NCBI GenBank assembly: GCA_030536755.1
Contig: JAUNPJ010000041.1
Span: 1 to 33,649, forward strand
Length of the DNA: 33,649 nt
Reading direction: 5' to 3'
Origin: Eubacteriales bacterium
Lineage (GTDB): Bacteria; Bacillota; Clostridia; Lachnospirales; Lachnospiraceae
Shown here in pieces: positions 5,469 through 23,844 of the stretch. The translations under genes and the position numbers were made by a program. Position 1 is the stretch's first letter, and every line of letters begins with the position of its first letter. The notes below the pieces were generated by a model. That model was not told the origin of the DNA. It made no database searches and saw only the letters and a program-made list of their open reading frames with translations.

Positions 5469-6677
5469 TTATCCGATCAGGGCTTGAAACGCCTCAAAGC
5501 CCGTAGTACTGTTCAATGTCTTTTTCTTTGCCTGCTCTCCATACGCCTTACATTTCTCCGGATGCGCAATCATCCAGAAGATTTCCTCGCTTACACACTT
5601 CGGATCCAGCGGACACATCCGCCCATCTATATCATGCACGATCTGTTCTCTGTTTCCGCTGCAGTCCGTTGCAAGGATTGGTTTTCCAAGCGTCTGCGCC
5701 TCCTGTATCGCAATACTCTTTCCTTCAAATCCAGTCGCATGCACATAAAGATCACAGTTCTTATAATACGGAAAGGGATTTTCCTTTACGCCAAGAAAGA
5801 TAAATTCCTGTTCCACCCCTGCATCTTTGATCTGCTGCCGAAGACTTTCCCGAAGTTCGCCCTCTCCCAACACATACCACCGAACCGGTGCGCTGCATTT
5901 TTCTTTCAGTAAAGCCATAGCCTGAATCGCAATGTCATAGCGCTTCTGCTGTGTCAGTCTTCCGACCGTCAAAATCCGATACCCCTGAAACTCATCGTCA
6001 AAACCACTTCCCTGTTCTGCCATTTGTCGGATTCGCTCCTGATTGATGAGATTATGAAAAACCGAAACTTTCTTTTCGTGTTCCGGGTAGACCTCCAGAA
6101 AATGCGCTCTCACCTCATCCGACACGGTAAATATCCGGTCAAATTTCTGGTAACAGTCCCGATCCAGTTTCCTCGTGTATCCTGCCTTTCCATAATCAAT
6201 ATGGACAAACGCTGCTTTCTTCCTGGCTTTTACATGTTCTGCGACATAATACGTCGCCCCGCCTTCCAGATAGGCAACTGCCAGGTCATATTCCTTCCTA
6301 ATAAGCGGCGCGCCATCCGAAAGCACTCGCCAACACAGCTTGTCCGGCAGGATTTTCCCTCTCCTTCGCATATCCCGAAAATTTTTCAACAGATAGGAAG
6401 CACGCCGCAGGAACAATCCTTTTTTGCTCCCGGCTCTCAGTACACTCCGGATCAGAAGTTTCCTTCCCTCGCCCGTAAGTACAGATACATCTTTGTAATC
6501 CCGATTGAGCAGCCGCACATGCTTCGGCAGCTCATGACTCAATTCTCCCTGCCCGGTCAGGACAAACAAAGAAATCTCATATTTTTGCGGATCCAACGCA
6601 TCAAACAGATCCAACATGGCGCGCTCCGCGCCGCCATATCCCAGTGTATTGATGACAAACAGTAGTTTCTTTTTCAT
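5469..6677 (-). CDS. GT4 family glycosyltransferase
   Basis: A 402-residue GT-B glycosyltransferase. It begins KKLLFVINTLGYGGAERAM, the classic GT4 glycine-rich acceptor loop, and has ILTVGRLTQQKRYD in the donor-binding half followed by an EX7E-type segment (EGKSIAIQEAQTLGKP). The start overlaps the pelG stop by four bases, so it is coupled to the Pel genes and links the Pel core to the extra glycosyltransferases downstream. GC content is closer to the Pel genes than to the AT-rich genes at the far left. Substrate unknown. Confidence 0.9.
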   Translation of the reverse strand: MKKKLLFVINTLGYGGAERAMLDLFDALDPQKYEISLFVLTGQGELSHELPKHVRLLNRDYKDVSVLTGEGRKLLIRSVLRAGSKKGLFLRRASYLLKNFRDMRRRGKILPDKLCWRVLSDGAPLIRKEYDLAVAYLEGGATYYVAEHVKARKKAAFVHIDYGKAGYTRKLDRDCYQKFDRIFTVSDEVRAHFLEVYPEHEKKVSVFHNLINQERIRQMAEQGSGFDDEFQGYRILTVGRLTQQKRYDIAIQAMALLKEKCSAPVRWYVLGEGELRESLRQQIKDAGVEQEFIFLGVKENPFPYYKNCDLYVHATGFEGKSIAIQEAQTLGKPILATDCSGNREQIVHDIDGRMCPLDPKCVSEEIFWMIAHPEKCKAYGEQAKKKTLNSTTGFEAFQALIG

Positions 6678-8219: not shown

Positions 8220-9653
8220 CTATTCTTCCCATTCCAGATTCTGTCTGTGTGCTGCTTCTCGATAAATTTCTGCGTAGGTTTTCTTCATGTCTTCCATTTT
8301 ATATTTTCGCATCAGCCGCTGATAACCGGCATTTGCCATCTGCCTGCGTTCCTCCGGATTTTCTGCCAGATAAACCATGGCATTCGCGATCTCCTCTATA
8401 TTCATGATGTGCGTCAGAATCCCCGCTCTGCCAAACTCATCATCCTCCCCATACAGAAGGCCTCTGCAGTTTCCCACATCTGTCGCGATCACCGGCACAT
8501 GTGCCGCAAAGCTTTCCAGAATCGTCAGCGGCTGCCCCTCACTGATGCTCGTGAGGATCGTCATATCCATCCAGCCCAGATAATCCGTAATCTGAATCCT
8601 TCCCGTAAATTCCACATCGAGAAGGCCCATCGTCTCCACCATTTTAAAGCATTCCGCCGCGTACTCAGGATCTTCCTCATAAGGGCCCATAATCCACAGC
8701 TTCAACCTCGGACATCGCTTCTTTGCGTAGGAAAAAGCCTGGATCATCGTCTTCACATCTTTGATCGGTGCCACACGCAGAATTGCACCAACATGAATAT
8801 ATCCTGATTGCTCCGGCGCAACACCCGACAACTTCTCCAGTCTCCTGTAATTGATTCCATTTGGTGTGACCATAGTCTTCTCCTTCGGACATCCAAGTTC
8901 GACCTGCAGCTCTCTCGCATGCTGATAGAGACTGGTCACAAGATCCGCCTTGTCATATGCTACCTGAGACATTTTCTTAAACTGTTGGATCCAGATTTTC
9001 TTGTAGAGACGCTGCACCCACTGTGCCTTGATCAGTTCTTCCTCTCTCTCCCGGGTGTAAATGCCATGTTCCGATAAGATCAGCTGGCCATTGTGAAGAT
9101 GCTTTCCCATACTTCCCAGAATTCCTGCATATCCCGTCGCCACCGCATGATAGACATCTGCCTGCGGAACCTCCATCGACATGGCAAGAAAGAGCGGGAG
9201 GTACATGGAGCGCATCGTCCACAGAAAATCAGAAAACACGATATCCGGGTACTGCAGATTGTAGCAGTCCAGCACGGCATGATAGAAGTCTTCCCCCATC
9301 AGCAGGTCATTGATCGACAGGTCATGATTCTGAAAGAAATCAAACATTCGATCCCACTCCACTTCGTGATTCAGGATCAGACTGCGCAGTGCATGGTATT
9401 CCTCCCGATTCAGGCGTGTCTTATGCCGCTTATTGACACTTCCCCAGTCTGCATCCTCCAGATAAAGCTCATACACCTCTGTCACATTCTCCGGCAGCTC
9501 ATAGGCAAATTTCCCACTCAGCTCCCGACTCGCAATGATTGTAAGCAGGATGAATTCCTGTTTCGGAAATGTCTGAATGATGCTGTGCACCCAGCCGGAC
9601 ACGCCGCCGACCACATAAGGATAACACCCTTCTGCTATGATGCAGATGCGCAT
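8220..9653 (-). CDS. pelF: Pel polysaccharide synthase PelF (GT4)
   Basis: A 477-residue cytosolic GT4 glycosyltransferase recognised as PelF, which polymerises the Pel chain (an N-acetylhexosamine polymer in characterised systems). The N-terminal domain carries GGVSGWVHSII at residues 16-26, characteristic of PelF. The C-terminal donor half has ILRVAPIKDVKTM and the catalytic EX7E pair E372/E380 within EGQPLTILE. In known systems PelF works with a PelD-PelE-PelG membrane complex, and PelD gives c-di-GMP control; the same partners are encoded beside it. It starts 19 bases after the DUF2194 gene. Confidence 0.93.
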   Translation of the reverse strand: MRICIIAEGCYPYVVGGVSGWVHSIIQTFPKQEFILLTIIASRELSGKFAYELPENVTEVYELYLEDADWGSVNKRHKTRLNREEYHALRSLILNHEVEWDRMFDFFQNHDLSINDLLMGEDFYHAVLDCYNLQYPDIVFSDFLWTMRSMYLPLFLAMSMEVPQADVYHAVATGYAGILGSMGKHLHNGQLILSEHGIYTREREEELIKAQWVQRLYKKIWIQQFKKMSQVAYDKADLVTSLYQHARELQVELGCPKEKTMVTPNGINYRRLEKLSGVAPEQSGYIHVGAILRVAPIKDVKTMIQAFSYAKKRCPRLKLWIMGPYEEDPEYAAECFKMVETMGLLDVEFTGRIQITDYLGWMDMTILTSISEGQPLTILESFAAHVPVIATDVGNCRGLLYGEDDEFGRAGILTHIMNIEEIANAMVYLAENPEERRQMANAGYQRLMRKYKMEDMKKTYAEIYREAAHRQNLEWEE

Positions 9654-9672: not shown

Positions 9673-11526
9673 CTATTCGTAATAATAAAGCTCTCTCTTC
9701 GGTTTCAGTGTGACGGAAGCCTCCCTTGAGGTAAGATGCAGAAGATACGCTCCCTCCTCAATCTCTTTCCAGGTCCCGCCGGTCATTTTATCCGGTTTTT
9801 CTCCATGTGTTCGAAGCAGAAGATAGGCATCTCCGACAAAATCTTTCGTCTCAATCGAAATCTGCTCTTCGTTTCTGGTGCTTTTGGCACTTCCATTCAG
9901 AAAATTGCGGACTCTGCTGTCACTCTGACTGATCGTTGTCCTGTCAAATGCGGCAAATGGCTTCCAGTACGTGTCGATATTTGCCGCCATCTTCTCCGCT
10001 ACCTTCTCCCATTCGTCTTTTCTGCTCTCCGGCCACAGGACCTGATAGATATCCACCTGAATATTGCTGTAGCCAAGGGAAGTCTGCAGGCTTTTTAGCC
10101 TAAGGCTGTCCTTGTAGCTGTGCCTGTAAGCATTGGCTGTCATATTCTGAAGCGTGATCTGATCGCTCATCCAGGAGAGTATCTGCTGATCTTCTCTGTA
10201 TTGTCCAACAATCGTGCGGAGATCCTGGAAAAATTCCATCTTTCCATTCGCATCGATAAGTGAGGAGATCTGCTCCTTATTTTCCTCCCGGACATATCCG
10301 CCGGCAAAAACATAGTCCAGATTCCAGTTTTTCAAGGTCTCCCTCTCATCGGCCACAGACAATCGGAGATCAGAACCTCCCATACGTCCAAGCGAAACTC
10401 CGGCCTCCGCTGCTTCCTCATTAAAATATTTCAGATACTCGATCAGATCCTCCTGACTCGGTTCGTTCTGAGACGCATCACTCTGTTTGACAGACAGAAA
10501 TGAAGTAATCTTCCAGTTCCCCTTCTGCGCCGCTGCTACGAAAGATGGCCAGAGAACGTCACGACAAAACTGGCGTGTCGTCATTCCATAAGTCTCTGCC
10601 ATGGTTTCTTCATTCTCCACCGTCAGATCCGGGAAGCCTGCCACCGACAGATTCTGTGCATTGACCACAGGATAAAGTGCATAGTCCTCTGACTCATACA
10701 CCATGGCATCGAGTATCCCCAAAGCGGCTTCTCCTTTCATGTAGTCTCCGTTGACTGCAAAGACGGATCCGTCTCCCAGATTGCTTCTCCAGATGATTGC
10801 CGGCATATCTTCATTCTCCACATCCAGAGCTTCCTTTTGCTTTGCAGAGATAAATCCGACCATATACGATTTGGTCCTGGATGAAATGTCATACCAGGGG
10901 ATTTCCCGTTCCATATCAATAAGCTCCGGCTCTTTGACTCCCACAAACGAGTAGCAGGTCTCCCCACCCAGAAGGAATCCGCTGTAAAGGCGAATCTCAT
11001 GCAATTTGACCGATTCCGCACGCAGATGCTGGATGCCGAGAAGATTCTGAAGCGCTGCACAATCATTGATTGTCTGGTAGGAGGGCATGCGATAAAACAC
11101 AACCACACCGCCCTGCTCGACATACTGAGACAACACCTCCGATGCCTCGTTTGCATTCTGTTCGATCAATTCTCCGTCCAGAAGCAAGTATGTTTTTTGA
11201 TTTTCTTTCATCTGCAGGCTTCCGTATGCCTCATCCAGAGATGTGAACGCCCAAAAAGTATTCTTGCGATAGCCTGCCCACTCTTTTATGACGCGATAGT
11301 AACCATTGTCCTCTGTCCCGACATACAGGATCTGCTGCTCTGCAGTGTCATTCTCTGCTGCACCTGCATCCGTCTCCTGCGTTTTTCTCTCAATCATCTC
11401 TGTCTCTGCCGCATGATTGACATCGTAGTCATTAAAATATTCCTTCAGCACGACAGAAGAGAGAAAGAGCACAAGAATCACAAGCATCATTGTCATCATC
11501 ATGGCAAAATTACGTTTTGACAGCAT
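9673..11526 (-). CDS. DUF2194-type membrane-anchored protein in the PelA position
   Basis: A 617-residue protein with one N-terminal transmembrane anchor (residues 8-27) and a large extracytoplasmic part. Residues about 65-190 look like an alpha/beta domain (ILYVGTEDNGYYRV; TYLLLDGELIE). The C-terminal half from about residue 290 resembles DUF2194, a family with a deacetylase-like barrel, and ends in a beta-rich tail. In Gram-negative loci PelA de-N-acetylates and trims Pel; this gene sits where pelA would be, between pelE and pelF. I do not see an intact NodB metal motif (a TFDDG-like stretch plus HxxxH), so catalysis is uncertain. The family call is moderately sure; function as a PelA counterpart is inference from position. 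Confidence 0.68.
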   Translation of the reverse strand: MLSKRNFAMMMTMMLVILVLFLSSVVLKEYFNDYDVNHAAETEMIERKTQETDAGAAENDTAEQQILYVGTEDNGYYRVIKEWAGYRKNTFWAFTSLDEAYGSLQMKENQKTYLLLDGELIEQNANEASEVLSQYVEQGGVVVFYRMPSYQTINDCAALQNLLGIQHLRAESVKLHEIRLYSGFLLGGETCYSFVGVKEPELIDMEREIPWYDISSRTKSYMVGFISAKQKEALDVENEDMPAIIWRSNLGDGSVFAVNGDYMKGEAALGILDAMVYESEDYALYPVVNAQNLSVAGFPDLTVENEETMAETYGMTTRQFCRDVLWPSFVAAAQKGNWKITSFLSVKQSDASQNEPSQEDLIEYLKYFNEEAAEAGVSLGRMGGSDLRLSVADERETLKNWNLDYVFAGGYVREENKEQISSLIDANGKMEFFQDLRTIVGQYREDQQILSWMSDQITLQNMTANAYRHSYKDSLRLKSLQTSLGYSNIQVDIYQVLWPESRKDEWEKVAEKMAANIDTYWKPFAAFDRTTISQSDSRVRNFLNGSAKSTRNEEQISIETKDFVGDAYLLLRTHGEKPDKMTGGTWKEIEEGAYLLHLTSREASVTLKPKRELYYYE

Positions 11527-11556: not shown

Positions 11557-12483
11557 TTATCTCTGGATCATACGGATCAGCTCCAGTGTCTGGTTATCAA
11601 TGACAACGGAAGAGGAACGCAGATGATCCATCACTTCAAAAAATTTCTCTTTCTGATTTGTCTCAAAATACAGCTTCAGTCGGAGCGTATAAGAAGACAA
11701 TAACTCCGGATACTGCTCACTGAAGCGGTTTCCCCACAATTCTGCCTGATCGTATGCTCCCAGTTCCATCATTCTGCCAAGAATTGCTTCATAGCAGGAT
11801 GGCAGCATTCTGTCTGTTGCGTTTTGAAACAGTTTTTCACAAAGCTGCTCCATCTGATCCACATAATCCACCTGTTCTATCTGCATAAATACCTTCTGTC
11901 TCAGAACCTGATCCATATACCCGATCAGCTCCAGAATCTGTTTCTGACATTCTTCCTCTTTGATATCGCTCTCCTCAATCTGTTGCCTCGCCCTGCTCAC
12001 CTTCTCACGAAACGTATCCATCTTGCTCTGCAGAAACGACGCCGCATAATGCGCAACCTCAGAATCGTCACTGTCCAGCGCAAGTGCGATCGCAGAAAGC
12101 GATTCTTCCGTCTCTCCCAAAAGAACATTCAGCATATTCGCACGCTTCTTTTTCTGGTCTGACACAAGGATCGCCTCTCCCACCGCCACGATATTTCGTT
12201 CGCGCTCCTCATCGGCTTTTACTCTCGGCACATGTCTCTTCTTGCTGAACTCAACATCGGAGAGATCTCTCACCCCTAATTTCAAAAAATGATACTTCAA
12301 AAAACCGAAAAGGAAATACAAAATTCCCACAACGGGACAGAGCAGCATGATCGCCGTGTGCATCATATACTGCTTTCGGTTATCCGTATCTTTTTTCCAG
12401 ATCAGATACCAGATGAGATAGCCGGCCGCGATCAATGCATTCAAAATCAATACGACAAGAAAGAGGATTCCACTGCGCGTCAT
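11557..12483 (-). CDS. pelE: PelE-like TPR membrane protein
   Basis: A 308-residue protein with two N-terminal transmembrane segments (about residues 6-28 and 43-63) followed by a cytoplasmic, mostly helical, Glu/Gln-rich region with tetratricopeptide-like repeats, ending near residue 305. This is the layout of PelE, which binds PelD and helps hold the Pel synthase complex together. A coiled-coil stretch at about 150-190 carries many charged residues. The gene overlaps the pelD stop by four bases (ATGA), so the two are coupled, matching the tight PelD-PelE pairing of characterised loci. Primary-sequence identity with PelE is low, so the call rests on architecture and position. Confidence 0.77.
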   Translation of the reverse strand: MTRSGILFLVVLILNALIAAGYLIWYLIWKKDTDNRKQYMMHTAIMLLCPVVGILYFLFGFLKYHFLKLGVRDLSDVEFSKKRHVPRVKADEERERNIVAVGEAILVSDQKKKRANMLNVLLGETEESLSAIALALDSDDSEVAHYAASFLQSKMDTFREKVSRARQQIEESDIKEEECQKQILELIGYMDQVLRQKVFMQIEQVDYVDQMEQLCEKLFQNATDRMLPSCYEAILGRMMELGAYDQAELWGNRFSEQYPELLSSYTLRLKLYFETNQKEKFFEVMDHLRSSSVVIDNQTLELIRMIQR

Positions 12484-14663
12484 AAGCCCATCTCCTTACT
12501 GATTACGGTGCGAATTCCTTTCTTCTCCAGATTCCTCTGAACGAAGCCGCATCCTACCCGGTCGGTACTCGTGAGCAGGATATAGAGGCTGCCATCATTT
12601 CTGTAACCAATATAGTCAGTGGTACGAAGCATTTCTGCAATGATGACTCCAGCGCGCTCCATACCTGCTTCTGCGGAAACCACCTGCAGCAGAATATACT
12701 CGGTCAGATTCTTTTGTCCAGCTTCCTGATAAGTAGCAAACAGCTCCTCGAAGGCTTCTGCCTTCAGTGCCGGACTCTCATCCTGATATCGCTCATTCCG
12801 CAGGAAATCAAGGTACGTTGCCGATCTCTTCACGGATTTCTGAATCAGCTTACTGATGACCACCAGGCGGTTGGATTCATCAATCGTCATACGTTCAAAT
12901 GGAATACTCCACAGCAGGATCATCATCTCCATCTGTTCCTCCTCATAGATACAATAAGCCATCATCGGATATTCCGGATCCATCGTCCGGTTCAGATACA
13001 CTTCCTGCCTGGAAAAAGCTTCATAAAGCGGTTCTTTCTTCAGAAGATATACCGTATGTCCCATAGAACCGGCCTTTGCCGAGGTATATCCAAACAATCT
13101 CGCATACATCTCCTCATTGATACGGTAAAGAGAGACATCCCGACAGTCCATAACCTTCTGGATCAGTGTGATCGCATGAAACAAAATTTTTGCCGGATCA
13201 TTTTCTTCGAGCTGTTCGACCAGGTCATACACAGTACCAAGGCTGTAATCATAGTTGACGACTTGCGTGATCAGACCTTCCTTCACACGAAGGTTGCTGT
13301 CATTGATATCTGTGATATCTGTCACTCGCTCCGACAGGAAATCCACTTCCTGCTCACTCTCTTCCTTCATAAACTGCAGCTGGTCTTTCATATAGCCGAC
13401 CACAAGACCTACGATAAAGATTTCTGCAATCCACACATACGTATTATAATCCGTCACTACCTCAATTCCAGATTTTTGATACATCTGTCGAAACAGATAG
13501 CCCGCCGTGGCAAGCAGTCCCGAAAACGTAGCCTGCCGCTGTCCATGCACGACTGCAAATAGCAGTACATAAATCAGATAAAAATCAATCTTGGAAAAAT
13601 ACTGGCTTCCTGTCGCACGGTTGTTCAGCATAAAAAACGGTATAAAAAGAATCAGATTTTCGATATATGGCACCAGAGCCCCAAACAGCTCCATGATCTT
13701 AAAATAGATTCTGTACCAGATATTCCATCCCTGGTTGGAACGATCCAGAAAGCGTCCGCTGTGCTGCTTCATATAGCGCAGCGTCTTTTCGATGGTCTCT
13801 TCCGGCTCACACCAGATCTGAAACCCGAATTCTCCTTTGATCCGCTCATTGGATAAGATTACCGCATTCTGATCTTCCAGCGTATTGTCAATCTTCTCCA
13901 GTTCTTTTCCAAGATGATTTTCGATCGCATCTGCGATCTGCAGTTCTGAGTATGGTTTACCGGAAGAAATATGATAGAGTCCATGACGATGTTTTTCACA
14001 GGCAACCAGCTTATAGATGATCTCCACCGCATCTCCCATATAAGTAAGTCCATACTTATGATTGCTCCGATAAGAAACAGCGCCTTTCTGGAAGGCATCG
14101 AGGCACTTACTCTGGCAGATTCCAAAAGCTGCCTCTCTTCGGTCTCTCGGAACATCATGGATCCGGTCCAGGCGAAGAATCAGGACATCCTTTTTCAGCT
14201 GTTCCTGATAAAATCTGCAGCTTTCCTCTCCCTGAAAGAGCATCAGCGGGCGGATGCCTCTGGGAAGTGGCCGGACAGCTTCCGTCACGGGAATCTGATA
14301 CGAATTCCCATACACCTCTGCGGAAGATAAATAGATGAGCCGTCCTTTCTCCAGTGCAGACCAGGAAAGCAGGAGATTCTGCAATCCCGCCGCATACTGA
14401 AGCGCCTCTCTTCTCGGATTTTCTCCCGACAAATTGCCGTCAAATGCGCCAAGCAGAATCGTCACATCCGGATTCACGCTCTGAAACACCTCTTCGATCG
14501 AAGCGCTGTCATAGGGAAAATCATACCGCTCGAATGCATACTCATAGCGATTCGATGGATTTCGATTTCCCGATAACACGTAGATTTTGTGTCCCTCTTT
14601 ATGCAGTTTTAAAGAAAGTTTTCTCATCATAGGCGATACCCCGCCCACAAGCATGATGTCCAT
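12480..14663 (-). CDS. pelD: SDR-PelD fusion, predicted c-di-GMP receptor of Pel synthesis
   Basis: A 727-residue fusion. Residues 1-300 form an extended-SDR (NAD-dependent epimerase-like) domain with YLSSAEVYG at 111-119. Its N-terminal loop lacks the full glycine motif and no YxxxK pair is present at 112-200, so enzymatic activity is doubtful. Residues 325-425 hold about four transmembrane helices, 430-460 a coiled linker, 465-615 a GAF domain and 635-727 a degenerate GGDEF domain. The GGDEF position reads NDGSL (689-693), so no cyclase activity is expected. RTTD at 680-683 sits where the RxxD inhibitory site of PelD binds c-di-GMP. The protein should sense c-di-GMP and activate the Pel synthase. 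It overlaps pelE and starts 29 bases after the upstream membrane-protein gene. Confidence 0.88.
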   Translation of the reverse strand: MDIMLVGGVSPMMRKLSLKLHKEGHKIYVLSGNRNPSNRYEYAFERYDFPYDSASIEEVFQSVNPDVTILLGAFDGNLSGENPRREALQYAAGLQNLLLSWSALEKGRLIYLSSAEVYGNSYQIPVTEAVRPLPRGIRPLMLFQGEESCRFYQEQLKKDVLILRLDRIHDVPRDRREAAFGICQSKCLDAFQKGAVSYRSNHKYGLTYMGDAVEIIYKLVACEKHRHGLYHISSGKPYSELQIADAIENHLGKELEKIDNTLEDQNAVILSNERIKGEFGFQIWCEPEETIEKTLRYMKQHSGRFLDRSNQGWNIWYRIYFKIMELFGALVPYIENLILFIPFFMLNNRATGSQYFSKIDFYLIYVLLFAVVHGQRQATFSGLLATAGYLFRQMYQKSGIEVVTDYNTYVWIAEIFIVGLVVGYMKDQLQFMKEESEQEVDFLSERVTDITDINDSNLRVKEGLITQVVNYDYSLGTVYDLVEQLEENDPAKILFHAITLIQKVMDCRDVSLYRINEEMYARLFGYTSAKAGSMGHTVYLLKKEPLYEAFSRQEVYLNRTMDPEYPMMAYCIYEEEQMEMMILLWSIPFERMTIDESNRLVVISKLIQKSVKRSATYLDFLRNERYQDESPALKAEAFEELFATYQEAGQKNLTEYILLQVVSAEAGMERAGVIIAEMLRTTDYIGYRNDGSLYILLTSTDRVGCGFVQRNLEKKGIRTVISKEMGL

Positions 14664-14692: not shown

Positions 14693-17014
14693 CTAATTGT
14701 AATCATAATCAATCGCAAAATTATAGAGACGGTATGTATTCTGCTCGATATAATAGCAGACAAACCGGTCATTTTCATAATAAACCCGCAGTTCATTCGG
14801 ATACAGCTGCCGAAATTTCTGTGCCCAGTAATACATCCGGGACATAGTCACCGAACGCCGTGGCCCATTATATGCATTCAACCCGGAGTTTTGAGGAAGC
14901 GGCTGCTCTGCCTGTTCTTCTGAAACTTCCGGAATCTCTCCTCCATATCCGTTGGCATAGTTGAGCGGTTTCTTCTCTATATAGAAGTAGACCTTTTCCG
15001 TCGGAATCGTCACTTCCTTCGTTCGGTTCCAGTGCTCCATATCTTCCAAAAATTCAATCGTCTCTGTGTGTCGTCCGTATTCTTCAATCATACGAAGTTC
15101 ATCATTGGCAGACACAATAGTCCATTTATTGTCCTGTCCTTCGTTTTCTTTCAAAATATTGGCCGTGCAGAGGAGTGCCTCGTTCATTTCAAGATGACCG
15201 CCTCCAAAAGAACGTCTCATCCAGTCATACTCTGTACTGTAGAAAATTACCATCGCTGCCAAAACCAATCCCATGGCCTGCTGTACCCTCGGAAGGCGGG
15301 CCCAGAAGAAAATATTTACCGCACCATCCAGCGTCATGACAATGACCACCGGTATCAGATACGCCAAATAAATACTTGCACGGTAAGGTTCCATCAACAT
15401 CGGCCAGCCGAGAGAGCCGCTCACAAGCACCAAACCTAAAATAATCTCTGCGACAACGATTGCAAAAATACCAGATCCCCGCATCGGTTCCACCAGATAG
15501 CGCTGGAGCAAGCCCACACACAAAGCAGCACCGACTCCATATAGAAGCAAATTCATCTCCGATACTGCAAATGAGTTATGCTTACATCCCCATAAGATGG
15601 TTTCTTTATATTTCCATCCAATCCATACAATGGCTGCCAGAGGTGCCAGATTGCAAATCTGAAGAATGAGTTTCGTCAAAATCCAATGTCTCGGTACTTT
15701 CTTATTTTCAAAAGAAATCTTTCCGCTTTTGACTCCCCGAATCACAAAGACCATTCCCCCGACTGTCACTGCCACAACACCAATACAGATGACCCGGAAA
15801 ATCAGAACGGTATAATCCCTCAGTCCAATGACGTTCATCGCCCAGTACATCGACCCCTGCAGTTCTTTACCGGTCAGGAATGCAGCAGCCATCGGAAGAA
15901 ATGCCATCAGGATACTGAGAATACCCGCCAGCAGAATGCGAAAAAAATACTCTTTTCTCCACAGCCAGTACCCATAACCAACGGCAACTCCGATGCAGAT
16001 GATTCCTGCGATGATCGTGTCGTAAAAATGCGAATCCAGCGTCAGTGAAAAGCTCATGGCAAAACCAAGTAAATACCAGGAGGAGGTACAGCGAATCTTG
16101 TTGACTCCCGCTTCCAGTTCCTCTTTTCTCGTCTTAAAAAACTCCATCATAAAGAAGATGGCTGGGAGAATGTACAGCATTCCAAATTCCTGCGGAAGCG
16201 TCGCACCATATCGCGCATACGAAATACTGTTAAAATATTTCGCACCGACAAAGAACATCATTCCCAGATACGGAAGAAATCTTGTTTTGCAGTGCCCTTT
16301 CAGGAACACAAGGAGCATCACCGCGATCATACTGAACTGAACCAGCCAGAACAGACGCAGCGTCACATACGCCGGAATTCCAAGCATCATTGACAGATAG
16401 TACAGCATACAGTGCATCCCCATCGGATAAATGCCTGCGACATAGATGTTGTTCTCAATCAGTCCATTGATCCAGTAGTTATGTACCGGAAGGTCAGACG
16501 CCCCGTATCCCCAGTTATTCAGAATTCCCGTTCCGCAGACCTTCCACACAAGCAATGCAGAAATCACAAGAAACGGAACATCCAGAATATTTTCTTTCAG
16601 CAGACGCCACAGATTTCTTGCGGCAATCCGAAGAAACACTTTGAGTTCCTGCCATCTGCGCCTGAGAAAGCTTTTAAATCCCAGTTCCCGCAGAATGTAA
16701 TGTCTGCAGTCCTCCAGGAAGTTTTTCATATAGGAAAGGACCGGAATATGATACATCTTTATAAGCAGTACAAAAAACGGAACGAATGTAAACAGGAAAA
16801 GCGTGACCCGATAAGAGATGTGGAGCAGTTCCAGAACCTGCACCAGATTGATCACATAGAAATTACCAATGGTAAAATAGATCAGAAAACGGATGGCTGC
16901 GGGAAATCTTTTTGTTTTGCGATAAAAAATAAGAGCAGGAAGTCCCACCGTAAACCCGATATATCCAACAAACAATTGTACAAATTGAATCACATTTAAT
17001 GTTTGCATCGACAT
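14693..17014 (-). CDS. Large polytopic membrane protein, possible GT-C glycosyltransferase
   Basis: A 773-residue protein with about 12 or more transmembrane segments and a C-terminal soluble region (from about residue 625) rich in Tyr. I do not recognise a named family. After the helix at 146-160 comes a loop GYGASDLPVHNYWINGL (D174, H178, W181), then GIYPMGMHCMLYYL at 194-207. An acidic residue in an early extracytoplasmic loop is a common GT-C feature, so a polyprenyl-sugar-using glycosyltransferase is possible. Its place directly before the SDR-PelD gene, with a 29-base gap, suggests a role in Pel modification or export. The start is supported by GAGGAGG 9 bases upstream; a second Met two codons later is possible. 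Confidence 0.6.
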   Translation of the reverse strand: MSMQTLNVIQFVQLFVGYIGFTVGLPALIFYRKTKRFPAAIRFLIYFTIGNFYVINLVQVLELLHISYRVTLFLFTFVPFFVLLIKMYHIPVLSYMKNFLEDCRHYILRELGFKSFLRRRWQELKVFLRIAARNLWRLLKENILDVPFLVISALLVWKVCGTGILNNWGYGASDLPVHNYWINGLIENNIYVAGIYPMGMHCMLYYLSMMLGIPAYVTLRLFWLVQFSMIAVMLLVFLKGHCKTRFLPYLGMMFFVGAKYFNSISYARYGATLPQEFGMLYILPAIFFMMEFFKTRKEELEAGVNKIRCTSSWYLLGFAMSFSLTLDSHFYDTIIAGIICIGVAVGYGYWLWRKEYFFRILLAGILSILMAFLPMAAAFLTGKELQGSMYWAMNVIGLRDYTVLIFRVICIGVVAVTVGGMVFVIRGVKSGKISFENKKVPRHWILTKLILQICNLAPLAAIVWIGWKYKETILWGCKHNSFAVSEMNLLLYGVGAALCVGLLQRYLVEPMRGSGIFAIVVAEIILGLVLVSGSLGWPMLMEPYRASIYLAYLIPVVIVMTLDGAVNIFFWARLPRVQQAMGLVLAAMVIFYSTEYDWMRRSFGGGHLEMNEALLCTANILKENEGQDNKWTIVSANDELRMIEEYGRHTETIEFLEDMEHWNRTKEVTIPTEKVYFYIEKKPLNYANGYGGEIPEVSEEQAEQPLPQNSGLNAYNGPRRSVTMSRMYYWAQKFRQLYPNELRVYYENDRFVCYYIEQNTYRLYNFAIDYDYN

Positions 17015-17036
17015 AGGCAGCTTCCTCCTCTCCTGT

Positions 17037-17483
17037 TTATTTTAAGCTTCTCTTTTCCAAACCGCTCAGTCTCAAAAACGCGAGACAACCTCTTCGTATC
17101 GTTAAATTCTCGTTCCAGATTTTCTTGTATAAGCGATACCACCACGTTTTTTCATCGATATAATGTCCATTTCTGAAAAATCCCTGCACTGCGGCAAGAA
17201 TCTGTTCTTCCTGTATCTGCTCCTCCGGCTTCCACTGGTGGTCTCCGCATACCAGAAAGGTATTCTTCTCTCCAACCTTCAAAATCCGGTGCAGAACCAG
17301 TGTACCGTCTTTCCTCCGATAGAGAACGATATCTCCTTTTCTGAATTGTCTTCCATCCTTTGCAGCAAGCTGCACCCTGCTCATTCCCTCCTGCAGCAGA
17401 GGCCACATACTGGTTCCTGTGATCGGAACGACTGCAAACCCAAGCTCCTGCAGGCACTGTTCGAGATTCCCCATTTGTTTCAT
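17037..17483 (-). CDS. S24/S26-type (signal-peptidase-like) serine peptidase
   Basis: A 148-residue protein resembling the S24/S26 peptidase clan. Ser25 lies in GTSMWPLL, matching the nucleophile box of signal peptidases. GDIVLYRR (50-57) and LVLHRIL (62-68) follow, then CGDH (79-82). The position usually held by the catalytic Lys of bacterial signal peptidases is His65, and with Asp81 this suggests a Ser/His/Asp arrangement like Sec11-type enzymes. There is no N-terminal membrane anchor. Such peptidases recur beside PqqD-like and HPr-kinase-like genes in peptide-processing cassettes. The start overlaps the pqqD-like stop by four bases. It could cleave the small peptide encoded at 17784-17975, which is inference; a non-proteolytic role is also possible. 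Confidence 0.78.
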   Translation of the reverse strand: MKQMGNLEQCLQELGFAVVPITGTSMWPLLQEGMSRVQLAAKDGRQFRKGDIVLYRRKDGTLVLHRILKVGEKNTFLVCGDHQWKPEEQIQEEQILAAVQGFFRNGHYIDEKTWWYRLYKKIWNENLTIRRGCLAFLRLSGLEKRSLK

Positions 17484-17746
17484 CGTATCAGCATGTGGCA
17501 GGAGTCCAATTCGGACAGAAATGCATCCACATCGTCCTCCACCAGTTCCGGTTTTGTCTCATATTCCTGTGCCAGACCTGCCACCAGGCAGTCTCTGTCT
17601 GTATCCTGCTGCAGCATCCGGCAGACAAATTCACCTGTATGATTCAGCACGATCATCCCCTTAAAATCTGTCTCACGTTCCGAAAGCGGGATGAGCACCA
17701 CATTTCCATTTACATTTCTTAAAATATGATCTTCAATCAGACGCAT
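17480..17746 (-). CDS. PqqD family (RRE-like) peptide-binding protein
   Basis: An 88-residue stand-alone PqqD-like protein. It has the family pattern: a short beta region (VVLIPLSE), LNHTGEFVCRMLQQ at residues 34-47, a helical LVAGLAQEYE (54-63), then DDVDAFLSELDSCHMLI at 71-87. PqqD-type domains act as RiPP recognition elements that bind the leader part of a precursor peptide and present it to a modifying enzyme. Here it follows a 63-residue peptide gene by 37 bases and precedes a peptidase with overlap, so the natural partner is that peptide. No radical SAM enzyme, cyclase or dehydratase is encoded nearby, so the modification it would guide is unclear. Confidence 0.85.
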   Translation of the reverse strand: MRLIEDHILRNVNGNVVLIPLSERETDFKGMIVLNHTGEFVCRMLQQDTDRDCLVAGLAQEYETKPELVEDDVDAFLSELDSCHMLIR

Positions 17747-17783
17747 AAGTGATCCTTTCTTTGTATGTTCTCATTCTGATTTG

Positions 17784-17975
17784 TTATTCTATCGTTGTAT
17801 TGGTTCCACCCATTAACTGATTCAATGCGTTTGCCGCGTAATTAGGGGTTTGCGTTGGATCTGTCGTTACAGGTGGTGGATTTGTTCCACTACTTGCTGT
17901 CAGAATCTGATCGTTATCGTCAAATTGATAAATCTTCATTCTTGGAGGCTCATATGCCCTTCTATTCTTATCCAT
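17784..17975 (-). CDS. Small candidate precursor peptide (63 residues)
   Basis: I set the start at the ATG at 17975 (MDKNRRAYEPPRMKIYQF), with AAAGGA about 11 bases upstream. A longer frame begins with GTG at 17984, but its ribosome site would be too close. The N-terminal part (YEPPRMKIYQFDDNDQILTA) looks like the leader of small peptides often found beside PqqD-like genes. The rest is low complexity: PPPVTTDPTQTP, then NYAANALNQLMGG and TNTTIE. It has no Cys, so lanthionine, sactipeptide or ranthipeptide crosslinks are excluded; Thr, Ser, Asn and Asp are plentiful. It lies between the HPr-kinase-like gene and the PqqD-like gene and is probably the substrate of the cassette. The call rests on context and composition. 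Confidence 0.7.
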   Translation of the reverse strand: MDKNRRAYEPPRMKIYQFDDNDQILTASSGTNPPPVTTDPTQTPNYAANALNQLMGGTNTTIE

Positions 17976-17980
17976 CAAAA

Positions 17981-18754
17981 TCACATTCCTTTCATCACTC
18001 TGTACGAGAGTTCTGCCGCTTGCGGCTCTCTGGTGCAGCTCATCTCATATACATGAATCTGCGTCACTGTCTGTTCTATCATGTCCAGCAGACGATTCAT
18101 TCCTTCACTACTCGCCGGTCGGTAAGTATTATTCAGCATCAGGGCAAGCGCCTCATCTTCCGTCACCTGCCTGATCTGATTTACGTTGCCCTTTCTCAGA
18201 AAACAGATTCCTCTAAGCGGGACTTCCCGGTTGACCTGCAAATCCGTCTTTCCGGCAAACGGTGTTCCCCATGCCGTGATCCGCCCTTGCTGTGGACAAA
18301 TCACCGGTTTATCATCATTCAAAATATAGCTTCCCGGAAACAATTTTTGCCAAAAAGCAGTGTGTGTCGATTTACCCGTGCCGGACGGTGCAGAAAACAG
18401 ATAGGCCTCCCCCTCATAAACCACGGCTGAAGCATGAAGGAAAAAACGGCCATGCTGCACAATATTCCGGCAAAATGCCGCACTGCAGCAAATATATTCC
18501 AGCTCCTCCTGTGAAGTTCCGTTCTTCTGAACATGTGCTTCATCATAGGAATCCGGCTTTACAGTCATAACAGGTTCGCCAAAAGATCGGTAAGATGCAC
18601 TCTGTCTCGTCAGACGCCCAAACCTGGGATCCATCTTCACTTTCAGTCCGGCAATCTCATATATCATCTTCTCTTCTGGTTTCCTTTCTTTTCCAAAAGG
18701 GATGTGCATGTCACTCAATGTCATCCTGATTTCATAACATTGGTATGTAACCAC
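17981..18754 (-). CDS. HPr-kinase-like protein of peptide cassettes
   Basis: A 257-residue protein (from a GTG start) with an HPr-kinase/PEP-carboxykinase-like fold. It has FLHASAVVYEG at 105-115, the Walker A APSGTGKST at 122-130, and NDD at 146-148, which matches the acidic pair used in phosphotransfer. GTPFAGKTD follows at 163-171. It is much shorter at the N-terminus than true HPr kinase and sits beside PqqD-like and peptidase genes, as in cassettes where such kinases phosphorylate a peptide (paeninodin-type lasso clusters) or act in unknown ways. The true start is uncertain: GTG at 18754 has GGGG only two bases away, and Met codons at residues 11, 16 or 30 (MIYEIAGLKV) are alternatives. 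It ends nine bases before the peptide start. Confidence 0.82.
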   Translation of the reverse strand: MVTYQCYEIRMTLSDMHIPFGKERKPEEKMIYEIAGLKVKMDPRFGRLTRQSASYRSFGEPVMTVKPDSYDEAHVQKNGTSQEELEYICCSAAFCRNIVQHGRFFLHASAVVYEGEAYLFSAPSGTGKSTHTAFWQKLFPGSYILNDDKPVICPQQGRITAWGTPFAGKTDLQVNREVPLRGICFLRKGNVNQIRQVTEDEALALMLNNTYRPASSEGMNRLLDMIEQTVTQIHVYEMSCTREPQAAELSYRVMKGM

Positions 18755-18797
18755 ATCCCCTTTTTAAGTTTTTTGATTTTAGAAAATTTTATGTTAC

Positions 18798-21700
18798 TTA
18801 TTGTGGATAATGAGATTTTCCTCTGTATTCTTCGGAAGCCGTATTGACTACGCCATTGTCATTCGTTACCTTTGTACCGGAAGTTCCGTTAACAGTGATA
18901 GTTGCAGTCGCTCCCGGTGCATAGAGGTTATCAATGATAAAGCCATAGGTTGTATTGGCCTGCAGTCCTGATGCATCCCAGTAGTAGGTGAGTGTTGTTG
19001 CACCGCTGATCTGCTGGATGCTGCCCTTGTTGTACTCTACTCCAGCACTGTCTGTCAGGATGGAAGTTCCATTGCCGGTAAAGCTTCCGGTGCCTCCCAC
19101 TTTCACGTAAGCCGAAGCTGGTACGCTGACGGTGATCTGGATGGTACTTACATCAGTCATCGTATTGAGAGAATACTTAAATCCGGTAGAGATTGTGTTG
19201 CCGAATTTGTTATCAAGGCCATAGCCTTTCTCATTTATTCCAGTTCCTGCGTTGCGGCTATTGAATACATCTGGAATCGTTGTTTCTGCACTCTCCGCAA
19301 CGAAAGAAAGATAAACTGGACTTTCTACCGTCGGTTTATAATCAATCTCAAATCTTGCGTAGTAAATGACGTTGTTAGCTTCTGATGTTGTCGTGGTCGA
19401 ATAAGTCGCATCCGTACTTAACTGATTGCCATCTTTGTCATACCAGCCAAGGAATTTGTAACCTGAATTTGCAGTTGCCTTGGAGCTTGCAGCCGCTCCA
19501 TCTACATCTGTCACAGATGCCACAGAAACCTTACCGCCGACATTGTCCGTCTTAAAAGAGCCATTTGCCTGCTTCGTCTGTGCGACAAACTTGACGGTAT
19601 AAGCCGTTTCAAAACGTGCATAGTAGGTGGCATCGCCTGTTGTAGTGTAACTGATGGTTGCGCCATTGTTGATCAGCATAGTATCGGCAACTTTATTGCC
19701 TGTTGAATCATACCAGCCAACAAACTTATAGCCTGTACCTGCTGTCGCTGTGGAACTGATTGGCATTCCCGCTGCATCGGTATAAGTGTAGCGACCAAGT
19801 GTTCCGATCTTATCATCGGTCGTATCTTCCCAGGTATCTCCATTTTTCACCTGACGGATGTAGGTCTGGGTAACACTTCCAGAAAATCTTGCGTAGTAGG
19901 TATTGACACTTTCTTTGGTTTCCACATAAGTGTAAGTTGTATTTGTAGTAATCAGATTTCCGCTCGCATTGTACCAGCCCTCAAAGGTAAAACCATCTTT
20001 CGCCGTTGCTGTGGCGGTTATAGTTTCATCGGTTTCGGCATGGTAGGATTTCCCGCCGTTTGCATTATATGCAGCATTATAATTTTCATCAGATGTATTG
20101 GTCACACTGGTAATCTCAACGGTTCCGCCGTTAGCAGAATCTGTGAATGTGTTGCCGCTACCAACCTGAGGAATGAAAGCCTGACGCCAACGCCACTGAG
20201 CAATCATGGTAAGACCTTTATGGACATTTGCATAGGCTTTTGTTTCTCCATTATCTGCCCATGTGACACCTGTGACCTCATTCTGAGCATTTATATAAAT
20301 GTTCTGCATCAGTGATACTTTTTGCCCATAAATCTTAAAATACTGTTCTGCCGATTGATTTGTCGCTCCATCAACAGAGTAATCGCAGGCAACTGTATGT
20401 TCTGCCGGAAGCAGTAAACTGCCTAACTTGTCTGCATTTACCTTTTCCTTCGAAGTATTATCAACTGTATCACCGGTCAGCAGCCATCCCATAAATTTCC
20501 AGCCATCATTCTGTCCCTCTGCCGCTTTAGATACATATGGATCAATAAACTTTAAGCTTGTCTCTTCTGTCGCCGGTTTGAAACTGTACACATTCGCTGC
20601 TTCTGTAGTATTATAAGTTCTTCCAACTTTATACTCTTTTCCACCGTTTGGATCATACGTAATCGTTGGGCTCTTGATAAATACAAAATGTAAATCCGTT
20701 GCTGACGTGATATTATTCAGATAGTAAGTATAAACAGTATCACCAGCATCATTCGTCGATTTGATCCATTTTTCATTTTTCTGCTCATCGCTCAAACTTC
20801 CGGTATCTTCTATTTCATTTCCTGCTAGTTGCAGAAATTTCGCCGTCGGATCTCCATTTTCATTCTGTACTGTATAATAGACACCAACAAATTCGCACCC
20901 CGCACTCGCATCATCTTTCTTTACAATAGCCTGAATTCTAAGAGCTTCTCCGTCTGTCACATACGTTGTCAGTTTGTCGTTCACCGTAACTTCATGACCA
21001 TTCGATGCACCTGCTCCTCCCGTTGTTCCGTCACTGCCTCCAATCACAGCACTTCCATGTGTGGTGGAGCTTCCTGACAATGGATGGTAAAGCTGGAAAT
21101 TGATGTTATCGAGGAAGTTTCCATATGTCTTTGCTTTATCCGCTGTTGTTGGCGAATCAACATACCCAACTGATACGAATCCAAACAATGTATCCGTCTG
21201 ACCTGCCGGTACGGTATAGAGATAATACTTGTCCAGATCTACCGTCGTACTGCCAGAGCCATTGCTGCTTCCGGCAGAGCCTTCTGCATTGGATCCATAA
21301 GAGTTCCATGGATTTGTCCCACTTGTTGCTCTACTGGATGCCATAATCCAGATATGCCACTCTTCCGTATAAATCGTACTTGGTGTCAGGCTGAACGCAT
21401 TATTTCCGGCATTATCTGCAAATGCACCGCTGGCTGCAAATTTCTTACTGTAAACGGTAAGACGCTCTCCTAACCCTGCACTCGTCTTTACAGATGTCTT
21501 CCCCTGTGCGATCAGCCAGTCCACCATCTGCATTAACTGGTCGCGCCCAGCCTTGCTCGGCTTTGACGGGTCAACACTCTGCTTTGGTCCGATAATCAGC
21601 GCCATCGTATCCGTACCATTGCGGCCGCCATGATCCAGTCCCCATTCGTAGACACTGGATGGCGTTGTCTTAACGTTCTGGTATAAGGTACTTTCTTCAT

Positions 21701-22058
21701 CTGCATTTAACTCCGCAGCATAACTTCCAGCTGAAGGTTTCAATTTTACTCCTGTAACATAAGTACTTGTATTCTCTCTAAATAATTCAATCTTACCCTG
21801 AAACGCTGTCGTATTCCAGGAGGGAACAGCACTTTGATTCGGCTGGGAATACGCATTGGTAAACGTCTGCTCTTCCTCAAAACTACCGTTCTGCAATTTT
21901 CTATTATCCGTTGTAGTTGTAGTGCTCGTTACATTCTCATCCGCATACGCAGCCCCGACGCCCACTCCCACAACCAGACAAAGTCCCAGCAGAAGTCCAC
22001 GTACTTTTACAAGTAATTTGCTTTGTTGTTTCTTTTTCCTTCTCCTCTTTGCACTCAT
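18798..22058 (-). CDS. Secreted repeat protein / putative adhesin with InlB-type repeats
   Basis: A 1086-residue secreted protein. A basic N-terminus (KRRRKKK) is followed by a hydrophobic core at 16-38 and a likely signal peptidase site after AYA-D. Residues 55-330 resemble an NGSFE-type beta-sandwich carbohydrate-binding-like domain (LQNGSFEEE; YAAELNADEESTLYQNV). Residues 330-620 contain beta-rich segments and one divergent repeat (GWKFMGWLLTG). Three InlB/Listeria-Bacteroides-type repeats of about 90 residues lie at 625-904, each with GWY and YYARF. Residues 905-1086 form a separate C-terminal domain. I see no LPXTG, C-terminal hydrophobic tail or choline/SLH repeats, so how it stays on the cell is unknown; binding to the co-expressed polysaccharide is possible. 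AAGGAGGGG lies 6 bases before the start. Confidence 0.85.
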   Translation of the reverse strand: MSAKRRRKKKQQSKLLVKVRGLLLGLCLVVGVGVGAAYADENVTSTTTTTDNRKLQNGSFEEEQTFTNAYSQPNQSAVPSWNTTAFQGKIELFRENTSTYVTGVKLKPSAGSYAAELNADEESTLYQNVKTTPSSVYEWGLDHGGRNGTDTMALIIGPKQSVDPSKPSKAGRDQLMQMVDWLIAQGKTSVKTSAGLGERLTVYSKKFAASGAFADNAGNNAFSLTPSTIYTEEWHIWIMASSRATSGTNPWNSYGSNAEGSAGSSNGSGSTTVDLDKYYLYTVPAGQTDTLFGFVSVGYVDSPTTADKAKTYGNFLDNINFQLYHPLSGSSTTHGSAVIGGSDGTTGGAGASNGHEVTVNDKLTTYVTDGEALRIQAIVKKDDASAGCEFVGVYYTVQNENGDPTAKFLQLAGNEIEDTGSLSDEQKNEKWIKSTNDAGDTVYTYYLNNITSATDLHFVFIKSPTITYDPNGGKEYKVGRTYNTTEAANVYSFKPATEETSLKFIDPYVSKAAEGQNDGWKFMGWLLTGDTVDNTSKEKVNADKLGSLLLPAEHTVACDYSVDGATNQSAEQYFKIYGQKVSLMQNIYINAQNEVTGVTWADNGETKAYANVHKGLTMIAQWRWRQAFIPQVGSGNTFTDSANGGTVEITSVTNTSDENYNAAYNANGGKSYHAETDETITATATAKDGFTFEGWYNASGNLITTNTTYTYVETKESVNTYYARFSGSVTQTYIRQVKNGDTWEDTTDDKIGTLGRYTYTDAAGMPISSTATAGTGYKFVGWYDSTGNKVADTMLINNGATISYTTTGDATYYARFETAYTVKFVAQTKQANGSFKTDNVGGKVSVASVTDVDGAAASSKATANSGYKFLGWYDKDGNQLSTDATYSTTTTSEANNVIYYARFEIDYKPTVESPVYLSFVAESAETTIPDVFNSRNAGTGINEKGYGLDNKFGNTISTGFKYSLNTMTDVSTIQITVSVPASAYVKVGGTGSFTGNGTSILTDSAGVEYNKGSIQQISGATTLTYYWDASGLQANTTYGFIIDNLYAPGATATITVNGTSGTKVTNDNGVVNTASEEYRGKSHYPQ
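19347..20186 (-). repeat. Three tandem InlB-type protein repeats within the secreted protein
   Basis: Three consecutive coding repeats of about 88-101 codons occupy 20186-19884, 19883-19611 and 19610-19347. Each has a [YFV]xxQxxxG start, a turn with small residues, then GYKF.GWYD or GFTFEGWYN, and closes with YYARF. The copies have diverged, with roughly the aromatic and glycine positions kept, so this is old duplication and not a recent DNA repeat. Confidence 0.8.
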
Positions 22059-22113
22059 CCGTTCCCCTCCTTACTTACTTTCTTCTATCATTCCATTTCA
22101 TCCTTGAACCGCT

Positions 22114-23844
22114 CTATTTTCTCTCTTGCGTCTTCTCCAGAACACATATCCTTGCATTCCCATTTTTTATATGTATCCGATAATCGCAGATTTGAAGTGC
22201 CGCCGCTCTGTGTGTCACAATCAGACAGGTTCTATCCTTCAAAGAAGAAATATTTTTCAACAATGTTGCTTCGGTTTCCTCATCCAGTGCACTGGTGCTT
22301 TCATCCAGCAGCAAAATCGGCGCTTGGGTCATCAGTGCTCTTGCCACTGCCACCCGCTGTGCCTGTCCCTCGGAAAGTCCGACTCCCCGCTCACCGATCA
22401 CGGTGTCCAGACCTTTGTCCAGCTTCTCAATCAGAGAGTCAATGCACGCCAGCCGGGCTGCCTGCCATATTTGCTCATCTGTCACCGTATCCTCTGTAAA
22501 CATCGTAAAATTTTCCCGAAGTGTTCCCGAAAACAGCGTGTTGCCCTGCGGCACATAAGCAAACAGCACTCGCGTTTTTCGTGATGCTGCTTCCTGCACC
22601 ATTGTCTCGGAATCGCTTTGAAAGCAAAAATGCAGTCTGCCTTTACACGGCTGATAGATTCCAAGCAGCAGCTGAAACAACGTACTTTTGCCGCCGCCCG
22701 AAATACCGGTCACTGCCACAAAATCTCCGGGTTTGATGCTGCAATTGACATGTTCCAATACATCCTGCTCTTCTCTTCCATAGGAAAAACTCATATTCTC
22801 TATTCGAATTTCTGACAATTGTTTATATAATATACTTCGATCCTGAAATTTACAATCTTTTTCTTCGGGAAGGTCGAAAAGTTCCTTCAGCCGTTCCGCA
22901 GAACTGATGGTGCTGTACGCCTGACCGGCAACGCCCGCTGCACTGGCAATCGGCCCCTGAATCTGCCCGACGAGCTGAATAATCGCCGCAAACATTCCAT
23001 ACGTCAAGTGGCCCTGATAGATGCCAAAGCAGCCCCAGAGCATACAAAACAGCCAGCCCAGCTGAAACACAAGGTTGACTCCCATACTGATATAGGAAGC
23101 GAAATACCCTTTTTTCAGCTGCATCTCCATATAATTCTCCTGCCTTTGGGCCGCCTGCCGTTCCATTCTTTCCTCCGAAACGGAAGCCTTCACAAGCCGC
23201 AGATTCTGCAGTGTTTCCTGCAAAAACGCATGCAGTCTTCCCTCGCTTTCCTGCACAGCTTTATGCCTCGTTTTCATCGGCCTTCTGAATGCAAGAAGCA
23301 GGAACATTCCAAATGCGCCCCCTGCGATCAGAACGACCACGAATCTCCAGTCCATCGAAATCAGAATCACTGCGGCGCCGACAAAGCTGACAGTCATACT
23401 CACCAGCCCCGGCACAATGTCCAGAATCCCGTTTTTGACGACACTGACATCCGAAAACATTCGATTCACCAGTTCCCCGCTGTGATAACCATTCAGAGAA
23501 GCATATTGCTTTTTCATCAGTTCGTGCAGCAGCATACTGCGTATATCTTTCAGAAGTACCGCGCCTGTTTTGACGGATAATAGTCCCGACAACAGGTATG
23601 CGCCTCTCCCGACCAGAACGGTAAGGATCATCACGATTGCATAAAAGCGGATCTGACTGCTCATATGTGCAGTCGCCCCGTCAATCAGCCCTCTTGTCGC
23701 AACCGTAATCACAAGTGAACAGCCAGATACAATCAGGTTGAGAATGCAAATCCAGAAGACAGCCCAGTGACTTTTTTTTGACCATGTCCAGATATCTGCA
23801 AGTGCCGGGCTTTTCAACATCTGAATTATTTTTTCTTTATACAT
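22114..23844 (-). CDS. ABC transporter, fused permease and ATPase (exporter type)
   Basis: A 576-residue half-size ABC exporter. Six transmembrane segments occupy about residues 25-300. The ATPase domain has Walker A GISGGGKST (380-388), Q-loop Gln433, signature LSEGQ (490-494), Walker B ILLLDE (510-515) and switch His545, so it should be active. There is no N-terminal C39 peptidase domain. It would work as a homodimer in the cell membrane. Lying first in the operon and in the same run as the peptide, PqqD-like and peptidase genes, it is a good candidate to export the processed peptide, although lipid or glycan export cannot be excluded. The own ribosome site of the 23844 start is weak; a better site precedes an overlapping 15-codon ORF. 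Confidence 0.87.
   Translation of the reverse strand: MYKEKIIQMLKSPALADIWTWSKKSHWAVFWICILNLIVSGCSLVITVATRGLIDGATAHMSSQIRFYAIVMILTVLVGRGAYLLSGLLSVKTGAVLLKDIRSMLLHELMKKQYASLNGYHSGELVNRMFSDVSVVKNGILDIVPGLVSMTVSFVGAAVILISMDWRFVVVLIAGGAFGMFLLLAFRRPMKTRHKAVQESEGRLHAFLQETLQNLRLVKASVSEERMERQAAQRQENYMEMQLKKGYFASYISMGVNLVFQLGWLFCMLWGCFGIYQGHLTYGMFAAIIQLVGQIQGPIASAAGVAGQAYSTISSAERLKELFDLPEEKDCKFQDRSILYKQLSEIRIENMSFSYGREEQDVLEHVNCSIKPGDFVAVTGISGGGKSTLFQLLLGIYQPCKGRLHFCFQSDSETMVQEAASRKTRVLFAYVPQGNTLFSGTLRENFTMFTEDTVTDEQIWQAARLACIDSLIEKLDKGLDTVIGERGVGLSEGQAQRVAVARALMTQAPILLLDESTSALDEETEATLLKNISSLKDRTCLIVTHRAAALQICDYRIHIKNGNARICVLEKTQERK

Follow-up and report, generated by a model that had tools for sequence, protein, structure and literature searches.

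The stretch of DNA analysed here, referred to as the window, is 33,649 bases long and contains four adjacent genes on its minus strand (17037..18754) that encode a putative kinase, a small peptide, a PqqD-type protein and a signal-peptidase-like protein. This cassette is co-directional with the genes of a Pel exopolysaccharide operon and lies inside the same run. There are 5 bases between the kinase stop and the ATG of the peptide at 17975, 37 bases between the peptide and PqqD genes and an overlap (-4) between the PqqD and peptidase genes, followed by gaps of 22 bases from the peptidase gene to a 773-aa gene and 29 bases from there to pelD. These distances bear out the gene positions and the overlapping or nearly abutting arrangement within the Pel run that an earlier note, made from the sequence alone, had described. 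The products are compared throughout with those of the Linear Polyphosphorylated Peptides (LPP), a RiPP family with the genes lppA, K, B, S, D and N that was described by Popov et al. in May 2026 (PMC13381572).

Downstream of the cassette the run continues, on the minus strand throughout, with the gene for the 773-aa membrane-type protein (14693..17014), which matched no Pfam family and whose homologues occur in many of these Pel loci whether or not a kit of this kind is present. It is followed by genes for PelD with an N-terminal SDR/epimerase domain (12480..14663; Epimerase PF01370, E 2.8e-9), PelE (11557..12483), a 617-aa DUF2194 protein in the PelA-DA position (9673..11526; PF09960, E 3.2e-26), a PelF-type glycosyltransferase (8220..9653; PF11997, E 2.7e-79) and the PelG exporter (6674..8182; PF16933, E 3.1e-146). 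Thus pelD, pelE, pelF and pelG occur in a single run, pelD being named by its SDR domain and position and pelE by its position between pelD and the DUF2194 gene; homologues of both PelD and PelE are present in the PelG regions of relatives. Upstream of the cassette, also on the minus strand, are genes for a 1086-aa InlB-type repeat protein with an N-terminal signal-like stretch (18798..22058; PF18998, E 1.7e-11) and for an MsbA-like, LppD-like ABC exporter recognized by domain and NCBIfam model matches (22114..23844). A consensus scan of positions 16500-24200, a range that ends before the pelD gap, revealed no terminator-like site on the minus strand between genes and a single weak promoter-like site (9/12), located within the kinase gene. 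The earlier note had named, as evidence against its reading, a strong promoter and a terminator separating the cassette from the Pel core; neither appeared in that range.

The kinase gene was listed as an ORF from 18754 to 17981 with a GTG start. An ATG at 18667 corresponds to the residue at which the ORF begins in three of four relatives (L162, L166, L168 and L169 taken together), and the fourth has a Met there. Because the ORFs of three relatives begin at this residue, a 228-aa HprK-like (LppK-like) kinase encoded at 17981..18667 on the minus strand is more likely. The protein contains LHAS, the P-loop SAPSGTGKST and NDD, as expected from the intact Walker A and NDD already recognized in the earlier note. 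Its AlphaFold model (pLDDT 88.9) matches the structures of HprK/P and PEPCK (Foldseek HprK/P E 1.2e-5), and a further set of structure matches consisted of PEPCK entries only. The kinase is therefore predicted to have the HprK/PEPCK fold, and its P-loop, His and NDD are all present. Ten Pel-linked RRE-kinase fusions (L171, L175, L177, L180, L183, L214, L219, L223, L226 and L233) have NGD where the clade of the window has NDD. The chemistry of these fusions may differ, because NGD replaces a motif whose first Asp we take to be the catalytic base of HprK.

The precursor peptide gene (17784..17975, minus strand) is an ORF for 63 residues with no Cys. The peptide consists of a leader that includes YEPPRM and, further on, ILT, then ASSG, a variable linker and the conserved C-terminal YAANALNQLMGGTNTTIE, and so contains a YxxP motif followed by Thr-x-Ser. 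Orthologues found at the same place in the four relatives share two conserved blocks separated by a linker of varying length: the leader, YEPPK.KIYRFDDND.ILT with x-Ser after it, and the C-terminal YAANALNQ....NTTIE (YAANALNQ..GG.NTTIE), the first residues of which differ in L168. The dN/dS of the peptide is 0.08 between the window and L162 and 0.12 between the window and L169, dS being saturated for the two other window pairs, and among the relatives themselves it is 0.34 (L162 and L169) and 0.15 (L162 and L166). Since these values are low, the Cys-free peptide that the earlier note picked out is a real gene under purifying selection.

The stand-alone PqqD-type RRE (LppB-like; 88 aa; 17480..17746, minus strand) matches PF05402 with E 6.7e-13. 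A profile built from 14 RREs matches, at E<=0.01, only four PDB chains: TbiB1, TfuB1, LppB (9x8z) and PbaB1 (9x90). In the pairing with 9x8z, residues N35, Y62, V69, D72 and F76 of the window RRE align with N33, Y60, V67, D70 and F74 of LppB, which are named as leader contacts (PMC13381572). The counterparts of N33 and D70 are kept in 41/43 and 43/43 stand-alone RREs of named pelD loci, respectively. Among control PqqD proteins, 7/11 keep both N and D (two of them being kit RREs) and 4/11 lack both; because seven other PqqD proteins keep both, these contact residues fit RREs of such a sort but are not proof of LPP. The last gene of the cassette (17037..17483, minus strand) encodes a 148-aa SipW/archaeal-type signal-peptidase-like protein, a candidate LppS-like leader peptidase. 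It matches TIGR02228 (archaeal signal peptidase I) with E 6.2e-11 and the SipW model with E 4e-7, both below the curated cut-off, and its profile matches SEC11C with E 5e-4. Residues S25, H65 and D81 are invariant in 17/17 aligned sequences, and no membrane segment was seen in the protein by eye.

The gene order of repeat protein, kinase, peptide, RRE, peptidase, 773-aa protein and pelD is kept in L162, L166, L168 and L169, that is, in all four relatives with long enough contigs; the contigs of L163, L164, L165 and L167 end too early. The repeat protein adjoins the cassette at the same position in all four, and dS between the window and its relatives is at least 0.75. The earlier note had also placed an ABC exporter at the head of the operon. 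This holds for the window, but in none of the four relatives is the exporter directly upstream of the repeat protein, so its place is not conserved. In two of them a gene for a GGDEF protein is found just before the repeat-protein gene (L162:1767-2573 and L169:1240-2367), where the window has the exporter. Upstream of the exporter, at 23968-25719, the window contains Resolvase-like (22.1 bits, cut-off 23.3) and HipA_C-like genes, which are perhaps a sign of local rearrangement.

The link between these genes and Pel was surveyed in 150 genomes of the family to which the window belongs. Kinase homologues were found in 39/150 genomes, PqqD in 78/150 and PelG in 30/150. Of the 31 mapped PelG loci, the window included, 12 have a PqqD gene no more than 20 kb away (that of G043 being fused to the kinase) and 11 have a kinase gene in the same range. 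The 30 PelG genomes contain 41 PqqD matches, 19 of which (a hand count) are within 20 kb of PelG against 0.54 expected, with a P value that ignores kinship, though nearly every genome represents its own genus. When only presence in the same genome is counted, PelG is not significantly associated with PqqD (19/30 PelG genomes, P 0.12) but is associated with the kinase (14/30, P 0.005). The leader profile, whose seeds include the window leader, matches the genome of the window at E 1.6e-7; it matches 22 of the 150 genomes at E<=0.1. Of the 18 genomes matched at E<=1e-3, 17 contain a kinase.

A second set, the best 80 of 267 named loci by similarity to the PelD of the window, consists mostly of metagenome assemblies, with titles that are mostly Lachnospiraceae or its genera and include some Oscillospiraceae, Eubacterium and Clostridia. 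Within this best 80, 77 loci have room for a PqqD gene ahead of pelD, and in 40 of them one ends within 500 bases of its start. A kinase is in reach in 14/58, four being of the window type and ten fused to a PqqD domain. Cultured relatives are among these loci: in Fusicatenibacter saccharivorans (L232) the RRE gene immediately precedes pelD, and Eubacterium plexicaudatum ASF492 (L183) has both a kit and an RRE next to pelD, with pelE and 773-type frames that appear split in its record. With these counts and those for PelG, the recurring link between the cassette and Pel that the earlier note suggested looking for is found. It holds for only some of the Pel loci: in a sample of the order, 14 genomes have PelG over the cut-off, and the 12 that remain when G000 and G022 are set aside lack a PqqD in that 20-kb range, three of the 12 being of the same family. 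Many kits also have no Pel gene in the fetched stretch (for example L035, L036, L038, L040, L042 and L045). Wzz-type polysaccharide genes occur near the kits of L035, L042 and L049, and none was found among the one or two neighbours scanned for each of L036, L038 and L040. Wide occurrence with no link to Pel, which the earlier note had considered fatal to its idea, is thus seen in its first half, as kits are common without Pel, but not in its second, as kits stand beside Pel far above chance.

The genome of the window itself contains a second kit at G000:C36 (L042:878-11437), comprising an ABC protein, a peptidase, PqqD, a radical SAM protein (PF04055, E 1.9e-21) and a kinase, after which come LytR_cpsA_psr, sortase, Wzz and NTP_transf_5 genes. 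Beyond these, the family has numerous other divergent HprK-like proteins (L021 to L033 plus additional kinase matches).

A tree of 42 kinases places the fused Pel kinases on one branch (100/100) and the window type on a separate one (99/100); closest to the latter are the non-Pel L034 and L035 (85/85, not starred). The kinase of G035 represents a third Pel-linked branch, beside the non-Pel L049 (100/100). Given the starred branches, the single-gene Pel label must have changed at least twice in this unrooted tree, in which gain and loss are indistinguishable. Outside its own clade, the window RRE is likewise nearest to the RREs of non-Pel kits. Because the Pel-linked kinases are on separate branches and the window RRE is nearest to non-Pel kits, repeated recruitment of the kit to Pel loci is probable as judged from the sequences. 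The same results bear on the proposal that an LPP module only sits in the Pel operon, as one of a family of clusters that move often and tend to land in polysaccharide islands, by accident of location and with no shared function. The kit is widespread without Pel, LPP clusters have a patchy history with many gains and losses (PMC13381572) and are often located in capsule loci, and the closest kin of the window kinase and RRE outside their clade are non-Pel. We nevertheless regard such a passenger as unlikely, as the operon gene order is kept in four of four relatives despite a dS of at least 0.75, the RRE gene directly precedes pelD in over half of the 77 loci drawn from the best 80, and Pel-linked kinases appear on separate branches of the tree.

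The kit may also serve proteins larger than the window peptide. In 8/10 other kinase-bearing Pel regions, with further examples elsewhere, we found proteins of 79-151 aa with an N-terminus like Y.KPVV......EGVYAASG. After the leader, this leader-tagged cargo is of at least two sequence kinds, one Cys-rich and one beta-rich-looking by eye, and the three cargo proteins that were scanned matched no Pfam family. The Cys-rich leader-tagged proteins at L219:2862-3227, L214:2321-2671 and L177:7299-7652 share the pattern YMN..W plus CLGC.A....GCGL. Short peptides with YxxP...TS occur in 5/18 non-Pel kinase loci. These proteins weigh on a further explanation, in which the phosphopeptide is a secreted or intracellular switch of Pel synthesis and the RRE near pelD ties leader recognition to c-di-GMP control. 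The short conserved C-terminal block of the peptide, the GGDEF gene heading the run in L162 and L169 and the frequent placement of the RRE directly before pelD would all suit a signal of this type. The leader-bearing ORF in most of the other kinase-bearing Pel regions, however, encodes a protein of 79-151 aa and not a short signal, and we consider the switch improbable.

The reading that we prefer, and consider probable, takes the cassette for an LPP-type RiPP module that forms part of the Pel operon and whose product works in the Pel biofilm, because it would be co-made with Pel. By analogy with LPP, the RRE (17480-17746) would hold the YEPP leader, the kinase would place one or more phosphates on the Ser just after the leader (T-A-S-S-G in the window), and the peptidase would cut next to the Thr, producing a linear phosphopeptide of about 37 residues that ends in the conserved C-terminal block. 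The adjacent exporter or another MsbA-like ABC protein could then carry it out of the cell. From gene order and recurrence we infer that the product may be a matrix component of the Pel biofilm, a Pel modifier or a regulator of Pel synthesis; a function in the biofilm is suggested by the repeated occurrence next to Pel genes but not proven by it. A bolder version, which we hold to be very improbable, is that kit products become part of Pel itself. The Ser-phosphate, extended by an NTP transferase where one is present, would then join leader-tagged cargo to the amino-sugar polymer or prime it, and the RRE on the PelD side would deliver it to the synthase.

As for known systems, the operon resembles the Gram-positive Pel operons of the pelDE-ADA-FG type (Whitfield et al. 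2020, PMC7112168) in its SDR-domain pelD, its pelE, its gene in the place of pelA-DA, its pelF and its pelG, and SDR-fused PelD was described there. The accessory Pel genes given in that paper are PelA-hydrolase-like, GalE, CotH kinase, polyphosphate polymerase, DUF4956 and DUF4832 genes, and its main text never mentions PqqD. For Gram-positive Pel operons, the literature searched does not mention RRE-kinase fusions, a stand-alone RRE gene immediately ahead of pelD or nearby leader-tagged proteins of about 80-160 aa.

An HprK-like protein also accompanies a PqqD-type protein in the HPr-rel-A and SynChlorMet systems, as modelled in NCBIfam. The kinase of the window matches the ScmC model with E 3.7e-9 and the HprK_rel_A model with E 7e-5; the RRE matches PqqD_rel_X with E 0.013. 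All three scores are far under the equivalog cut-offs (36.4 of 125, 22.1 of 200 and 16.4 of 35 bits, respectively), and there is no radical SAM protein among the scanned window proteins. Membership in either system, which we rejected at the curated cut-offs, is scarcely credible.

Lasso peptides of the paeninodin and pseudomycoidin type (PMC8498205) have an RRE, an HprK-like kinase and a [Y/W]xxP leader in common with the cassette, and a nucleotidyltransferase in common with relatives of the window, but the kit is without macrolactam cyclase or B2 peptidase. The earlier note had seen a likeness to parts of lasso and other RiPP clusters but no cyclase in the set, and indeed no PF00733 match was found on the contig of the window. 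A cassette that is a remnant or variant of a paeninodin-type cluster from which the cyclase was lost would explain the shared types of kinase, RRE, NTP transferase and exporter as well as the leader. Such an origin is largely refuted and in our judgement extremely improbable: the lasso B2 family (PF13471) is over its cut-off in 0/20 kit genomes, with none on the contig of the window, an SpI-like peptidase replaces B2, and dN/dS is low for all four genes. Sub-cut-off B2-like matches occur in 4/20 genomes, none near a kit. There is no strong Asn synthase near a kit; on kit contigs, matches are present only far off in one single-contig genome and, weakly, on G025:C64. The latter match is partial, at 24.6 bits over profile positions 23-80 of 354, and a divergent kinase is located about 9 kb away (G025:C64:70436-80075).

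The closest likeness is to LPP. In that family the kinase polyphosphorylates core Ser3, LppS together with LppB cuts after Thr(-1), and LppB was solved together with the leader (PMC13381572). Like LPP, the cassette has an HprK-like kinase, a discrete RRE, an SpI/SipW-like leader peptidase and no cyclase, as well as a YxxP leader, a short precursor with Ser after Thr, a location in a polysaccharide locus and, in the window but not at that place in the four relatives, an MsbA-like exporter in the run. Unlike LPP, it is without an NTP transferase, a core enzyme of LPP: neither the window nor the flanking sequence of the four relatives contains one. NTP_transf_5 homologues are present in 9/11 kinase-bearing Pel regions and 10/18 non-Pel kinase loci. 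The leader has the YxxP, the Thr and the following Ser of the LPP motif YxxPxVLxHQxIxFETxxS but not its VLxHQxIxFE, and its Thr is at Y+18, three residues further than the Y+15 of LPP. Because the cassette fits in peptidase, RRE, kinase and the absence of a cyclase, and departs in NTP transferase and leader spacing, we call it an LPP-type module, with phosphorylation and cleavage in the window predicted from the characterised LPP system. By sequence and model, the minimal leader-guided kinase-plus-protease pathway that the earlier note proposed appears to match the LPP kit. Its claim of novelty falls, as Popov et al. (PMC13381572) describe the kit itself and already place it in polysaccharide loci, often capsular ones. 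The setting is different: the host of the window is of Lachnospiraceae type and the locus a Pel operon, and the main text of PMC13381572 never mentions 'lachnospir', 'clostridi' or 'pel'. The LPP kit in Pel operons is absent from the literature searched. Relatives differ from LPP also in their RRE-kinase fusions and in an RRE placed immediately ahead of pelD. The role of LPP is stated as unknown in PMC13381572, where biofilm is raised only as speculation. The recurrent pairing of the kit with Pel, a defined biofilm polymer whose genes include one for a c-di-GMP receptor, makes that speculation testable in culturable gut bacteria.
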